The translations under genes were made by a program, and so were the position numbers. Shown here in pieces: positions 16,983 through 26,977 of a DNA stretch of 46,078 nucleotides. The notes below the pieces were generated by a model. It ran no database searches, was not told the DNA's origin, and was given only the letters and a program-made list of their open reading frames with translations. Each line of letters begins with the position of its first letter. Within the stretch, counting starts at the first letter, position 1. The stretch is from Chthonomonadaceae bacterium (lineage in GTDB: Bacteria > Armatimonadota > Chthonomonadetes > Chthonomonadales > Chthonomonadaceae): NCBI GenBank assembly GCA_027459665.1, contig DAIDHN010000031.1:1-46078 (forward strand), given 5' to 3'.

Positions 16983-18884
16983 TTACTTAAGAATGTATTT
17001 TCTTTTGCTTTTGTCAAATCCCTGCGAAAGCTTTTTGGCATCGAAGAGCCATGCACCCCCCCTCACATAGAAGCAGTGGTACCCTGAAAGAATGGAAGCC
17101 ACCATTCTGCGGGGGGTTCTGCGCACTATGTTGACCTCGGTGTGCAGGGTAATAAAATCTATTCCCTTGCGGTAGTGTTCTACCAGTTCGCGTACAATAT
17201 CAAACACGGGCATGCGCTCTTCATGCGCTCTGTTCTGCAGTTCCAGCAGGTCATTGAGGCGGGTTCTGCTGAAGAACATCAACGGCTCGGTTTCATCGTT
17301 GTAGTTCACAACATAGCGGTCTGGCGCCTGCCTTTCCATGGTGAACGTAGCTCCAGAATCCATTTTGATCATCTCAAACCAGTCTAGAAGGCCATAAATC
17401 AGGCGGGTGCTGTTGTTTACCCACACCGGCAGCATTTGCCCGCCGGGTGCCACTACTGTTACCTGCAGCAATTCTGGTTCAGAGGGAAAGAAGCAGTTGG
17501 GAAACGCACAGAGCGGCATGGTGCCAATCTGTTTGTGATGGTATTTAATGACCAGCCGTGCAGTAGAAGGCGGATTCTCGTCTGGGCTTACCTGAGGTTC
17601 TTCATCCAGCACTTCCTGTGCATAAGGCGAAAGCAACTCATTGTCGAGGCCATTTTCCAGCCCGTTGTCTTCCAGTGCAATATCTACCACTTCACCATCT
17701 GCATTCAGGTAGACATCGGCAGGAAACTGCAGCGAGTCGGGCACAGTATGCACGTAAGGCGGAACAGCGGTGACTGCGAGAAAACGGTCGGCGCCCACCC
17801 ACTGAATCTCTGGTTCCTGGCCGAGTGCCTCTATGAGAGTATTCATGTCCTGTTCCCAGGTAGGTGAAGAAGACGGGATACCCAGTGCACCATCCAGCAG
17901 GCTGGCTGCACTCACTGCTTCTTCGCTGTTCAAAATTACATCTACCATTTCCTGTATGGTGTCTGCATTCATTTCCAGCGGCTGTGCTTCGCCCAGCGGC
18001 TCCATTTCGGCGTCATCGCTAATATCCCGCCCTGCAACTGCCGGGAAGTGCCTGCTCAGTTCAGCTGCCATTTTAGCGCTGATGCAGGTTCCATTGGAAA
18101 GCAGCACTGCTTTACTTTTGAGCAGCGCGGCATAGAATTCAACCGGTCGAAATGTATCGCGGTTTTGCTTCCAGACCAGAAACTGCAGCGCTTTAACGCT
18201 CACCGGGATACCTACTGCATTCAAAAATGCCTCAATGCTTTGCGTTTCTTCGCTCAGTCCATTTTCGCGGGCTGCTTTTTCGTGGGCTAAGGTTTCTTCA
18301 TCAGCAAGAAAATTGTAAAAAAGCACATCGGCATCGTATGCATCCATGCTGGCATGATCGTGCTGCCAGGGGGTGACATCGGTAGCCAGCAGCCATTCGC
18401 TCAGCCCGATCAGCGTTTCTTCTTCATCTGCAATCTGAAAATATCTGTTGGTGTGCGCAACAGCTCTTTCCAGCAGTTCCTGGTAAATATCGGCAGGGCG
18501 GTGATATGCAAGGCTCAGTTCGCGCGCCAGGTGAGACAATGCGACAGGTTTACCTGCTGCCTTCAAAATGGTGGCAATGTTTCTGTCTATGGTATGGCGC
18601 GTATCCAGGTAGCGGGTAGAAAGCGTCCACCTTCGGTCACGCATGGTGGTTCGGGTGTTGGTGTTGAGTTCATCAATCATAAAACGCTTTCTGTCTGCCA
18701 GCAGCACTACTCTAAGCAGTTTCAGGTCGGCTGGCGGCAGATTTGCGGTCTGGGCCAGTTCGCCCAGTCTCACGCTGTCGCCGGCTTCTACCATAGTGCG
18801 ATATAGCAGATCACCCACATAGAGTGTGGCCAATTCTTCGCCAGCCAGCGGTTTGTATGCTTGATTATATGATGCAACAGCCAC
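16983..18884 (-). CDS. 633-residue winged-helix-like protein, unknown function
   Basis: I do not recognise this family. The N-terminal third holds segments that look like repeated winged helices, near residues 12-75 (LYRTMVEAGDSVRLGELAQ), 102-160 (IATILKAAGKPVALSHLAREL) and 210-275. The middle (about 280-470) is acidic and low-complexity. The C-terminal part has strands and helices ending VNIVRRTPRRMVASILSG and YVRGGAWLFD, possibly another winged helix. It has no signal peptide or membrane segment, so DNA or RNA binding in the cytoplasm is plausible but unproven. It uses a GTG start with AAGGAG 8 bases upstream. It lies 26 bases after rimO and 78 before gltX, in the same orientation. Confidence 0.6.
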   Translation of the reverse strand: MAVASYNQAYKPLAGEELATLYVGDLLYRTMVEAGDSVRLGELAQTANLPPADLKLLRVVLLADRKRFMIDELNTNTRTTMRDRRWTLSTRYLDTRHTIDRNIATILKAAGKPVALSHLARELSLAYHRPADIYQELLERAVAHTNRYFQIADEEETLIGLSEWLLATDVTPWQHDHASMDAYDADVLFYNFLADEETLAHEKAARENGLSEETQSIEAFLNAVGIPVSVKALQFLVWKQNRDTFRPVEFYAALLKSKAVLLSNGTCISAKMAAELSRHFPAVAGRDISDDAEMEPLGEAQPLEMNADTIQEMVDVILNSEEAVSAASLLDGALGIPSSSPTWEQDMNTLIEALGQEPEIQWVGADRFLAVTAVPPYVHTVPDSLQFPADVYLNADGEVVDIALEDNGLENGLDNELLSPYAQEVLDEEPQVSPDENPPSTARLVIKYHHKQIGTMPLCAFPNCFFPSEPELLQVTVVAPGGQMLPVWVNNSTRLIYGLLDWFEMIKMDSGATFTMERQAPDRYVVNYNDETEPLMFFSRTRLNDLLELQNRAHEERMPVFDIVRELVEHYRKGIDFITLHTEVNIVRRTPRRMVASILSGYHCFYVRGGAWLFDAKKLSQGFDKSKRKYILK

Positions 18885-21002: not shown

Positions 21003-21051
21003 AAAATAGAGTGAAATATTGTTTAAAAAGCAGAGCAGGAGAGCCAAGCGG

Positions 21052-23130
21052 ATGGTAGACAGGGAGAGCGGCATAGATGAAATATTAAGTGCGGTGCATC
21101 AGCTTAGCCCGCACAGTATCCCCGGCACAAACCACTGGCTGCTTGCCATGCTCTCGCAGCACAGAGAAAAGGCTGAACAGCTGGCTCAGGGGTTGCATGC
21201 AAAGCAGCTTGCCGTGCAGCTGCAGCAGATGCTGCTGTCTAACGACACCGGCGCTGCCGTATCTGCCGAGGTGATGATGCAGCGTGCGGGCAGGCAGGCG
21301 CTGGCAGAAGGGCGCTCGAATACCACGCTGAGCGATTTATGCGCCGCCATTCTTACATCGGCGGGCTATTTGCTGCACAGCCCTCAAAACACCGCCTCTG
21401 TTTCTCTCACTGTACTGCAGCGCATGGGGCGTAACCTCACCGCAGAGGCGCGCAAAGGCAGGCTGCCCGCGCTGATTGGGCGCACAGATGAAGTGCAAAT
21501 GGTGGTAGAAACCCTCTGCCGCCAAACAAAGCGAAACCCGGTGCTGATTGGCCCGGCAGGGGTGGGCAAAACAGCCATTGTAGAAGGGCTGGCCTGCCGA
21601 ATTGCTGCAGACAATGTGCCCGCCCCCCTGCGCGGGGTGGAAGTATGGTCGATGGAAATTCAGGCGCTGGTGGCCGGCGCCGGCAGCCAGTCGGAATTTT
21701 ATCAGCTGGTGCAAAAACTGGTGCAGGAAGCGGCAAGACCCGATGTGCTGCTTTTTCTGGATGAGGCGCATTCGCTGATAGGAGCCGGCGGCGCTGAAGG
21801 GCGCGGCGACCTGGGTAGCCTGCTGAAGCCTGCACTGGCACGGGGAGACATTGCCTGCATTACAGCTACCACCGATGATGAATACCGGCGCTATATCGAA
21901 CCGGATGCAGCGCTTGAACGCCGCTTTCAGCCCATACGCATTCAGCCGCTCAGCCCCGCACAAACCCTGCAGGTTCTGGAAACCCGCCAAAAAGAGCTGG
22001 AACAGAAAACAGGCGTGCAGGTGGGAGCACATGTGCTGCATGCCCTGGTGGAAACAGCCTCGCGCTATCTGCCCAACAGACAGTTTCCTGACAAGGGGGT
22101 AGACCTGCTGGAACAGTGCATGGCACATGCATTGGCGCTGGAAAAAAACCGGGTGGAAGAAATGGATGTGCTGCAGGTAGTGCAGCGCATGGTGGGCATG
22201 CCTGTAGACCTGGAAGCCGCCACAGAACGCCTTACCTGCAGCTTGAAGGAAGAGGGACTGCTCACGCCGCAGGATGTGCATTCACTGGTGCACAGGCTGA
22301 AAATCAGCCTATCGGGGCTGGATATGCGCCCCGAACGCCCCAATGCCACCCTGCTTTTAACGGGAGCCTGCGCACACCATGCAGCACGCATTGCAGAACT
22401 GCTTGCCGAAGCGCTTTTTGGAGCCGCCGACCGGGTAGTGAGCATAGACCTGGGTGTGATGCTGCAGCCGCAGGACATTACCATGCTGCTGGGCGCACCG
22501 CCAGGCTATGTAGGCTACAACGAAACGCTGGCGCTGCACAGAGTGGCACATACGCCCTGGTGCGTGCTTTACTGCCAAAACCTTATGCGATGCCACCCGC
22601 AAATCAGAGAAGTTCTGCTGCAGGGAGTGCGATCTGGCCTGCTCACTGATGCACGCGGAAAAAGAATTTATTTGAGCGATACCGTGCTGCTGTTTGCAAC
22701 CGATATAGAATGCGATGCAGAACAGACGGTGGGCCTGCGCACCAGAAGCGCATCACTTTCAACGCGGGAAAACGCGGCACGAGCGCTGGGTGAAGAGTTT
22801 ATTGCACAGATGGATGAAGTGTTTGCACACACTGCTGCCAATACCGGCAGTGATGTGGATTCTGACTGCAAAAACCTGCTTGCCGATCTTGCTGCACGCT
22901 GTACGCTGCACGCCATTCAACTGGAATGGGACAGCAGCTTTCTGGAATGGATGCTGGAATGCAGACGCCTTGCTTCTCACCCCAGAGACTGGGAACGAGT
23001 AGTGGAAGAAAAGCTTGCCGATTTACTGGGGCCGCACATTGCGGCAGCACCGGTACATCTTCGCCTCTGCTGTGAATGCGGCAGCCCCGCTGCTGTTGTG
23101 CAGTGCAGTACAGAAACAGAGAGCAAACAG
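21052..23130 (+). CDS. ClpC/ClpA-like AAA+ protein with degenerate second ATPase domain
   Basis: The 692-693-residue protein resembles Clp unfoldases without a ClpB-type middle domain. An N-domain-like region spans 1-110. D1 has Walker A GPAGVGKT (167-174), Walker B LLFLDEAH (233-240) and an arginine-finger string LERRF (288-292). The D1 pore loop, usually KYRG, reads GSQS (211-214). D2 retains GAPPGYVGY (481-489, with the GYVG pore loop), yet its Walker A reads [11 protein letters not shown] (436-446) with no lysine, and its Walker B reads [12 protein letters not shown] with no Asp-Glu. The C-terminus has CCECG. ATG 21052 is preceded by AGGAG; an in-frame TTG at 21019 would add 11 residues. 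It stands alone beside a VOC gene, with no T6SS or ClpP gene nearby. Confidence 0.8.
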
Positions 23131-23188
23131 TAAAGCAGCGCTGGCCTGCATGCCATGAAAACAGGCGAAACATGCCGTCAAAAAAAAG

Positions 23189-24222: not shown

Positions 24223-25011
24223 TTAACGCATTTCCTGTCCGCCCGTAACGTTGATCGCCTGCCCGGTCATATACCCTGCATAATCAGACGACAGAAAAAC
24301 CACAACGTTACATACATCTTCATACGTACATCCTCTCCCCAATGGTACCTGAGATTCATATTTTTTGCGTACCTCTTCGGGGCTGATATTTTGTGTGCGC
24401 GAATACTGCTCAAACAAGCTTTCCTGCCAGAGCGTGCCATCAAGCAAATTGCCTGGGCATACGGCATTTACACGAATGTTGTGAGGGGCAAGGTCTAACG
24501 CTGCAGACTGTGTAAGACCTATTCCACCGAATTTGCTGGCGGCATATGCGCTGTTGCGAAAGCTCCCCTTTTTTCCCGACTTGCTGTTTATCTGCACAAT
24601 AGCCCCCTGCTTTCGCGGGGCCATCACACGGGCAGCCGCCTGCAGGCAGAGAAAATACCCCACCAGGTTTACATCAAGCACTGCGCGCCATGCATCGGGC
24701 GGAAATTCGCAAATGTCGTACGCTTTCAAAATACCGGCGTTGGCTACCAGAATATCCAGGGCGCCGTACTCGCGCACCACCAGGTCTGCCATCGCCTCAA
24801 CATCTTGCTCATCGCATACATTGGCAGCGCAGGGCAGGGTGCGCACACCAGTTTCTTTCGCTATTTTTTGCGCTGTTTCTGCTGCTTTCTCCCCGTTTCT
24901 GTCGGCCACTACTATTCCGCGGCAGCCCTCTCGCGCCATCCTCAGAGCAATGGCCTCGCCCAAACCCTGCGCGCCGCCTGTAATCAGCGCTGTTTTGTTC
25001 TGCAGCATCAT
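24223..25011 (-). CDS. SDR oxidoreductase, sorbitol-6-phosphate 2-dehydrogenase-like
   Basis: This 262-residue short-chain dehydrogenase has the NAD-binding TGGAQGLG (11-18), NAG (91-93), and the catalytic YAASK (Tyr156, Lys160). Its long segment KSGKKGSFRNSAYAASKFGG, plus VNAVCPGNLLDGTLW and GCTYEDVCNVVVFLSSD, closely follows SrlD-type sorbitol-6-phosphate dehydrogenases, which convert sorbitol-6-phosphate to fructose-6-phosphate. Translation is coupled to the upstream dehydrogenase (ATGA overlap). Together they suit a sorbose or sugar-alcohol route, though no transporter or PTS gene is in view, so the phosphorylated substrate remains an inference. Confidence 0.8.
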   Translation of the reverse strand: MMLQNKTALITGGAQGLGEAIALRMAREGCRGIVVADRNGEKAAETAQKIAKETGVRTLPCAANVCDEQDVEAMADLVVREYGALDILVANAGILKAYDICEFPPDAWRAVLDVNLVGYFLCLQAAARVMAPRKQGAIVQINSKSGKKGSFRNSAYAASKFGGIGLTQSAALDLAPHNIRVNAVCPGNLLDGTLWQESLFEQYSRTQNISPEEVRKKYESQVPLGRGCTYEDVCNVVVFLSSDYAGYMTGQAINVTGGQEMR

Positions 25012-26750
25012 ACGGCTTCTTCCTCGCCCAGTTTCAGGCTCAGCAGCTCTTTTTCAGCCTCCTGTGTCCAAAACATGCCATCGCGCAGTTTTGCATACAC
25101 GGTAGGGTATGCCTCACTCAGCTGAGCAAGGGTAAGCAGCGGCAAGTCTGGTATTTGCGGAAAAATGAGCGTTTTGCCTGTAAAACGCCCCTCTTTCACT
25201 GCTGCCAGACCTTCTTTTGCAGCATCCATGCCCCCAATAGCCGCCAACGAGGCATTGGTAGAAAGCTCTCCGCTTTCCACGCGGCGCAGCGTCTCCTGCA
25301 TATCTGCCAGCGAAGAGCCGCTGCTGCCCAGATAACGGTGTCCGTTTTGCAAAATGCCGTCTACAGGCAGCCCCGCCATGGTTCCGCGGGCTACCCCGGC
25401 AAATATATTGAACTTGCCGTTTTTCGCCAGGTAATGCGCTGCATGTTCTATCAGCGAGGCGACTGGCACCAGCGACACAATGTCATCGAATCCGCGCCCT
25501 TCAGAAAGCCGGTTCAACTGCGCATCAAATTCCTGCGGCGTCATAGCAGCGGGATTGATTGCCACCAGTTCTATGCCCCTGCTGCGGGCGGTGGCTCCAA
25601 ACCGGTCTACCACGCTTTGCAGCCGCACTGCATCTACATCTGTTGCCACAATAAGGCGCGGCGCCTTCTGCAGCTGCACAGCCCTCTGCACATGCATCTG
25701 CCCCATAGGGCCGCCAGCCCCTATAAACCAGGCAGCGCCCCCCTGCTGTAATTCTGCGCCATCTGCAGCATAGGCATCTTTCAGCTGTTTGCTGGCCGCC
25801 CCCAGGTAGTGATGCCAGTTGTAGTGAATGCGCCCTATATCCAGCTGCAGCGCGCGGCCAAACGGATGCGCCGCAGCAAGGTTGCAAATGCCGTGGTCTG
25901 CCAGAGTTTGAGCTGCCCCTTCTACTACCTCAGGCGGTACGCTGCCAAGCACAAGTATGTCGTCAAATCCGCCGGGGGCGTTGTTTTGCTGAAACTCTTT
26001 CCAATCAGACGGAAGTGCGGCTTGCGACATGCCAGCCAACGCATATGCCGCATTGTGTTCTGCTGCTGCAAGAGACACCAGGCAGCCCACAGCAGGAAGC
26101 GCATTCTCAAGCAGTGCCTGCAGCTGAGGTAAAGCCTCTTCTGCCTGCAAACCCATAATGACCAGCATGGCGCCCCCTGCACGGCATCCTTTGCGGTGCT
26201 GCTGTGCATAAGCCGAAACCACACAGGCCCAGGGTTCTACCAGCGCCGACTCTACATAGCCAGTGCTTTCTTTCAGAGGCAGCAGGTAACACCCCTCATC
26301 CCCTTCAAGTATGGGCACGCCTATCACACTGTACTGCGCCAAACCGCCAGGCATGGCATACCCGTACGCCATGCTCTGCCCCTTGTAAAACACATCTGCC
26401 TGAATAATAAAGCGATCACCTGCGTGATACCTGCCTGCCAGCTCTTCACCCACTTCTACCACAGTGCAAGAAACCTCGTGGCCAAGCGTAACAGGGTCTA
26501 CTGCCAGCTGCCGGCCGGTGAGACGCGGGTGTTTTTCTCCCAGACCAATCACTTTTGTGTCAGAGAAACAGAGGCCGCAGGCATCCTGCCGCACCAGCAG
26601 TTCATTGTTACCGCAGCGAGGCACCTCAACTACCTCCGGCGCTCCCATCCGCCCCATATTTTCCAGCCCTGCCCCATACAGATGCCAGCGCAGCATGGTA
26701 CGCGGCAGAGGCGCAGCAGCATGAGTGTACTTCTCAAGCACTTCAGACAT
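25008..26750 (-). CDS. zinc-binding alcohol-dehydrogenase-family protein, L-sorbose-1-phosphate reductase-like
   Basis: This 580-residue protein has the medium-chain dehydrogenase catalytic zinc motif DACGLCFSDTK (Cys58, Cys61) and GHEV (His91, Glu92), then a Rossmann string FIGAGGPMGQMHVQRAV. It is much longer than normal alcohol dehydrogenases (about 340-400). An extra middle region lies between about 200 and 340, as in SorE-like proteins. Its partner is a SrlD-like SDR, a pairing found with sorbose/sorbitol metabolism. GGAGGGAG lies about 7 bases before ATG 26750; a longer ORF from 26774 was rejected. Confidence 0.75.
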   Translation of the reverse strand: MSEVLEKYTHAAAPLPRTMLRWHLYGAGLENMGRMGAPEVVEVPRCGNNELLVRQDACGLCFSDTKVIGLGEKHPRLTGRQLAVDPVTLGHEVSCTVVEVGEELAGRYHAGDRFIIQADVFYKGQSMAYGYAMPGGLAQYSVIGVPILEGDEGCYLLPLKESTGYVESALVEPWACVVSAYAQQHRKGCRAGGAMLVIMGLQAEEALPQLQALLENALPAVGCLVSLAAAEHNAAYALAGMSQAALPSDWKEFQQNNAPGGFDDILVLGSVPPEVVEGAAQTLADHGICNLAAAHPFGRALQLDIGRIHYNWHHYLGAASKQLKDAYAADGAELQQGGAAWFIGAGGPMGQMHVQRAVQLQKAPRLIVATDVDAVRLQSVVDRFGATARSRGIELVAINPAAMTPQEFDAQLNRLSEGRGFDDIVSLVPVASLIEHAAHYLAKNGKFNIFAGVARGTMAGLPVDGILQNGHRYLGSSGSSLADMQETLRRVESGELSTNASLAAIGGMDAAKEGLAAVKEGRFTGKTLIFPQIPDLPLLTLAQLSEAYPTVYAKLRDGMFWTQEAEKELLSLKLGEEEAV

Positions 26751-26977
26751 CTTTTGCTCCCTCCCTGTAAACATTGACCTAATAATCTACAATTTACAAT
26801 TCGCACATATTTTTACTTTTCCTCCTTTTCTTATATTTTCGTATTTTATCGTTTTTTCCTTTCTTTCTTCTCATTTGCTCTGGTTTTCAAAAAACCCCTG
26901 AGCAACAGAACCTGAAAAACCAGATAATTCTTTACAAACAGCTTCACACTACAGTGAACCAATATGAGGTAGAGTAC
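26751..26977. promoter_or_regulatory. AT-rich divergent intergenic region
   Basis: This 227-bp stretch is far more AT-rich than its surroundings and separates the leftward dehydrogenase pair from the rightward FemAB-like gene. On the minus strand AATTGTA is repeated twice in tandem near 26787-26800. No consensus promoter stands out. It is a plausible regulatory region for the catabolic genes. Confidence 0.35.

Follow-up and report, generated by a model that had tools for sequence, protein, structure and literature searches.

A conserved family of two-ring Clp ATPases with an intact D1 ATP site and a D2 ring that has lost its nucleotide site and kept its pore loop

Engineered ClpA mutants have been used to ask which ring of a double-ring Clp machine performs the work, and whether gripping is possible in a ring that does not hydrolyse. 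The sequence found at the D1 pore-1 position of ClpA, ClpB and ClpC is KYRG. The main motor of ClpA is its D2 ring, with D1 in an auxiliary role (PMC9663308). The contact of ClpX, ClpA and ClpC to the hydrophobic sites of ClpP is a tripeptide (PMC9035409, PMC9663308, PMC10149685), and IGF docking loops have been described in contact with these sites (PMC9035409). In Pex1/Pex6 it is D1 that is dead, and the gripping pore loops belong to the live D2 (PMC10518020). ClpI of Actinomycetota is a Clp class that was defined by bioinformatics, in a paper that also reports sequences with a short M domain and a variable LGF loop (PMC10149685).

Here we describe a Clp-like protein of a Chthonomonadaceae bacterium and its relatives, which we call pseudo-D2 Clps. 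The first-pass annotation of the gene knew of no described Clp machine in which ATP hydrolysis and substrate grip are split between the rings. Our literature searches, which covered open-licence papers, likewise found no described Clp with the pattern of a dead D2 and a live D1, and the family is apparently undescribed.

Gene, domain layout and distribution of the family

The window, which is the whole stretch of 46,078 nucleotides that was analysed, carries the pseudo-D2 Clp gene at 21052-23133 of the forward strand, where all features of the gene given below also lie; the ORF translates into 693 amino acids. The longest ORF starts with a TTG at 21019. The likely start is the ATG at 21052, near which the homologs also begin, and the length of 693 residues was taken because this ATG has a ribosome-binding site, AGGAGAG, 8 nt upstream (21037-21043). 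The gene stands alone between one divergent and one convergent neighbour, and a consensus scan found no sigma-70-type promoter. No conserved operon partner was found around the relatives, where flanks of at most about 10 kb were searched, shorter at contig ends; shared neighbour genes occur only between close relatives. Those window neighbours that could be identified, which were compared for type VI secretion, are housekeeping or metabolic genes. Membership of an anti-phage defence system or of a phage was rejected, the PADLOC matches being weak; a match to one PHROG, that of the ATP-dependent proteases, is no surprise for a Clp. Two other genes of the window may be recorded here. A 633-aa ORF between gltX and rimO (16983-18884, reverse strand) has no Pfam or NCBIfam match. 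A 588-aa alcohol-dehydrogenase-like protein (25008-26774, reverse strand) has its N- and C-terminal ADH domains about 200 residues apart, a spacing that suggests a large insert.

The protein consists of a Clp_N-like N domain followed by D1 and D2. Pfam matches the D1 AAA domain, the lid and an AAA_2 domain, which is D2. The N domain (residues ~1-110, 21052-21381) gives no score with the Pfam Clp_N model itself; in profile-profile comparison it matches the Clp_N region of ClpC/ClpB with a probability of 93%, and the structural model shows its helical repeats as helices. The span between D1 and D2 is 84 residues in all 22 members of the family, as compared with 150 in the ClpC and 214 in the ClpB of the host, indicating that the M domain is absent. 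Scores against the NCBIfam models all fall below the curated cut-offs, with 318 bits against 993 for the ClpA equivalog TIGR02639, 342 against 1232 for ClpB (TIGR03346) and 349 against 885 for ClpV/TssH (TIGR03345). At about one third of the cut-offs, these scores place the protein outside the named equivalogs, whereas the Clp_N-D1-D2 architecture and the fold are those of the Clp/Hsp100 superfamily. An AlphaFold2 model built from the 22-member alignment has a mean pLDDT of 85 and a pTM of 0.60. Residues ~116-684 align with ClpC, ClpA and ClpB chains (VIA Z about 30), residues 1-686 align with a ClpC-ClpP model (Z 33), and ClpA-ClpP structures are matched as well, the best structural matches being ClpC and ClpC-ClpP entries. 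The high rmsd of these matches probably reflects domain orientation.

The family comprises 22 distinct full-length members, and the relatives are 36-59% identical to the window protein. A search of 101 related genomes returned 14 clear relatives beside the window protein, one of them a fragment at a contig edge; these are 40-59% identical over much of their length, whereas ordinary Clps match mostly in D1. A profile search of the host phylum, Armatimonadota, found the family in 17 of 291 genomes, with one copy each. The GTDB species scan found it in at least Armatimonadota, Anaerolineaceae of Chloroflexota, Coriobacteriia, Krumholzibacteriota and an Eubacteriales MAG. Against the family profile, the members reach 757-1094 bits and the next full-length Clp protein 498, and in a tree from D1 alone they form a single clade with an SH-aLRT of 100. 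The pseudo-D2 Clps are a distinct, conserved family, single-copy and patchy in distribution.

Motif states of the two rings

The states of the motifs were counted in one alignment of the 22 members and 48 other Clp proteins, which are not all canonical and of which some are themselves degenerate. The ATP site of D1 is intact, as the first-pass annotation had read from Walker A, Walker B and the arginine finger. Walker A (GPAGVGKT, residues 167-174, 21550-21573) keeps its K and T in all members, and Walker B (LLFLDE, residues 233-238, 21748-21765) its D and E. The sensor-1 region (21862-21891) is also intact, with the second Thr in 22 and the first in 21 members, and the arginine fingers (LERRF, residues 288-292, 21913-21927) show RR in 21 of 22, the exception being a gap. 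The D1 pore differs. In place of KYRG the pore-1 loop reads GSQS (residues 211-214, 21682-21693). The Arg of KYR is found in none of the members and in 47 of the 48 other proteins. The Tyr, which the first-pass annotation had reported absent, is indeed lost in the window protein and in 20 of the 22 members in all; L050 and L051 keep it, so that the universal loss is that of Arg. Among the other Clp proteins this position is Tyr in 30 and Phe in 5. The D1 pore-2 loop region (21781-21810) is present in the alignment and has a low pLDDT, consistent with flexibility; pore-2 loops may also hold or touch the substrate. Outside the family, the D1 pore Tyr is missing on its own at the Lactobacillus loci L059-L061, L063 and L067-L070; the Clp proteins encoded there, about 710 aa long, have SSLRG for KYRG and an intact D2.

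In the D2 ring it is the nucleotide site that has been lost. The former Walker A reads GACAHHAAR for GPTGVGKTE (residues 438-446, 22363-22389), its Lys replaced by Ala in 14 and by Ser in 8 members; the Lys is thus present in 0/22 as compared with 48/48 other Clp proteins. In the former Walker B, VLYCQN for VxLLDE (residues 505-510, 22564-22581), the catalytic Glu is lost from every member, with Asn in 15, and is retained by 36 of the 48. These losses, and the retention of GAPPGYVGY, had been noted before for the window protein. The loss of two further elements had not. The former sensor 1, LLFATD (22687-22704), carries N to D, and the former arginine finger reads FIAQMDE for FLNRVDE, i.e., NRxD to AQMD (22798-22818); the Asn and the Arg are each lost in 22/22, the latter giving Gln in 13. 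Arg is kept at the sensor-2 position (PRDWER, 22981-22998), as it is in 14 of the 22. That orthologs might retain the D2 Walker motifs was a concern of the first-pass annotation; no member keeps either the Walker A Lys or the Walker B Glu. Losses shared to this extent are far beyond chance.

What D2 has kept is its pore-1 loop GAPPGYVGY (residues 481-489, 22492-22518), in which Gly481, Tyr486 and Gly488 are invariant in all members. When the 261 columns of D2 were ranked by conservation, 13 were invariant, including these three and Gly561 of the docking loop described below, while the block of Walker A columns was mostly variable. It is for this reason that we consider selection to preserve the pore and docking loops of D2 and not its nucleotide site. 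Purifying selection on D2 is seen in close pairs of members (for L003/L004, pN 0.069 and pS 0.78). That the gene is a decaying paralog or an artefact of assembly, to which the patchy distribution (17/291 genomes) might point, is very improbable given 22 distinct full-length open frames with the same losses in many assemblies, the selection on D2 and the single clade; sequencing error and pseudogene status, the former also raised in the first-pass annotation, were rejected on the full-length members and the selection. A CCECG near the C terminus (residues 673-677, 23068-23082), to which that annotation had drawn attention, is present as described, but its Cys residues occur only in the closest relatives L002-L004, and a zinc site was rejected since the motif is not conserved beyond them.

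Decay of D2 was also seen in other Clp proteins. In L078, L083, L099 and L109 from Bacilli-type MAGs, the D2 catalytic Glu, sensor 1 and Arg finger are decayed and the pore loop and an xGF tripeptide are kept; the Myxococcota-type L086, L093 and L094 show the same D2 decay, again with the D2 pore loop and xGF. These groups are placed apart in the D1 tree, so that the decay looks independent, and the sequences suggest a repeated loss of the D2 motor across Clps. The D2 of these proteins may still bind nucleotide, as the Walker A Lys is kept.

The putative ClpP-docking loop and a possible role of D2

Then, why would a D2 ring without its nucleotide site be retained? A hint is suggested by a putative ClpP-docking tripeptide, VGL (residues 560-562, 22729-22737), an element of the (I/L/V)G(F/L) type that the first-pass annotation did not mention. 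Its central residue, Gly561, is invariant in 22/22, although its neighbours in the loop are among the most variable columns of D2. The pattern (I/L/V/M)G(F/L) is found at this position in 19 members, as compared with 3.5% per sequence for shuffled loops; the three that deviate have TGY, AGF and FGF. The host ClpC has LGL at the same position and the host ClpB has nothing of the kind. It is also here that the xGF of L078, L083, L099 and L109 and of L086, L093 and L094 is located.

In the host genome, ClpP has trigger factor and ClpX as neighbours; the same contig carries a canonical ClpC, and ClpB is present. ClpP was found in every family-bearing genome examined except one that is 74% complete, a co-occurrence that is uninformative because ClpP is near-universal in these genomes. 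The number of ClpP paralogs was rejected as a correlate, carriers having mostly one ClpP as other genomes do, and ClpS was rejected as a required partner, being present in the host and not found in the carriers G044 and G057. Directly upstream of the full clpC, on contig C61 of the host, a 219-aa protein consists of Clp_N repeats only (L154:3687-4346, reverse strand); it resembles ClpC2, a partial ClpC homologue described in mycobacteria (PMC10030653).

Our preferred reading, to which we give a probability of roughly one half, is a ClpP-docking accessory unfoldase with D1 as the only ATPase and D2 as a passive coupling ring. It would serve the host as a fourth, accessory Clp ATPase beside ClpX, ClpC and ClpB. 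Hexamers would assemble via ATP binding in D1, and D1 alone would hydrolyse ATP. D2 would form a nucleotide-free passive ring, its GYVGY loops lining the channel exit, and would dock on ClpP via VGL. The Clp_N-like domain would select substrates or bind an adaptor, and D1 movements would reach D2 as rigid-body motion through the short linker, whose length is constant, and so move the polypeptide into ClpP. The substrates would most plausibly be loosely folded, because D1 has also lost its usual aromatic grip. Several points count against the unfoldase reading. With D2 as the main motor in ClpA (PMC9663308), a machine driven by D1 alone and lacking the D1 aromatic might not have the force for any unfolding. 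The docking tripeptide is short and three members deviate from it, and no conserved neighbour names a substrate or an adaptor. Like the first-pass annotation, we infer from the sequences, which fit it, that ATP hydrolysis and grip may sit in different rings. The stricter form, a naturally occurring partner of ClpP with hydrolysis only in D1 and with aromatic grip and protease docking only in a nucleotide-free D2, is a tentative proposal with the odds somewhat against it. Since ClpA is driven mainly by D2 (PMC9663308), the family would reverse the usual division between the rings.

Alternatively, the protein could be a regulatory subunit of mixed hexamers with ClpC, in which its D1 would retain the hexamer contacts and ATPase activity and its dead D2, lacking the Arg finger, would slow or retune the neighbouring ClpC D2 motor, as in the heteromeric Pex1/Pex6. 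Each subunit of such a ring would need the D2 pore and ClpP-docking loops, which are kept, the host has a ClpC, and a D2 that lacks its Arg finger would block the adjacent subunits. A D1 that is only 42% identical to that of the host ClpC and the absence of the M domain (84-residue span against 150) make this arrangement unlikely. It is equally doubtful that the protein is a competitor or gate of ClpP, docking without translocation and occupying the sites of ClpX and ClpC, with D1 hydrolysis timing its release; the docking tripeptide is kept and both the D2 motor and the D1 pore grip are lost, which speaks for it, but a pure cap would have no need of the D2 pore Tyr, which is invariant.

A remodelling chaperone that is driven by D1 and works independently of ClpP, with D2 as a structural ring, would have the layout of NSF, whose D1 does the motor work and whose D2 is mainly structural. 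The active ring of NSF, however, keeps its pore aromatic, and the docking Gly of the pseudo-D2 Clps is invariant, in a loop that is absent from the host ClpB, a type that works without ClpP. We regard such a chaperone as improbable, slightly more so than the two preceding proposals. Asymmetric substrate engagement has been noted for NSF (PMC9663308).

Comparison with known systems

The family shares with ClpA of E. coli ClpAP the two AAA+ rings, the lack of a long M domain, the N domain, the ClpP-docking tripeptide and the D2 GYVG. It differs in that both rings of ClpA are active and its D1 carries KYR, whereas the pseudo-D2 Clps are without a D2 nucleotide site and have lost KYR. With ClpC, including the host copy, it has in common the Clp_N domain, the D1 catalytic site, the D2 pore loop and the ClpP-docking loop; the M domain and the D2 Walker A, Walker B, sensor 1 and Arg finger of ClpC are missing. 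ClpI is a parallel in that it is also a Clp class defined by bioinformatics.

Among more distant systems, Pex1/Pex6 likewise pairs a live with a catalytically dead ring in a type II AAA+ machine, but the live ring of the pseudo-D2 Clps is D1, mostly without its aromatic. NSF resembles the family in using D1 as the motor and differs in that its D1 keeps the pore aromatic, its D2 binds ATP and it is not known to dock on a protease. In both Pex1/Pex6 and NSF the live ring also does the gripping, unlike in our reading of the pseudo-D2 Clps. The plant SMAX1/SMXL proteins (D53) are Clp-derived and also have degenerate nucleotide sites, and the Pfam SMAX1 NBD model is touched by 7 of the 22 members; they are, however, signalling repressors with no known link to ClpP.

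If the stricter form holds, one ring would generate the force and the other would apply it. Docking of the protein on ClpP would show that evolution can uncouple docking, gripping and hydrolysis from one another, whereas a protein that does not translocate would represent a new type of ClpP regulator. The decayed D2 with a kept xGF in unrelated Bacilli-type and Myxococcota Clps raises the prospect that the pattern may be general. The pseudo-D2 family can be regarded as a natural version of the ClpA mutant experiment, kept by selection across several phyla, in which D2, the principal motor of ClpA, is switched off and the grip of D1 is removed.
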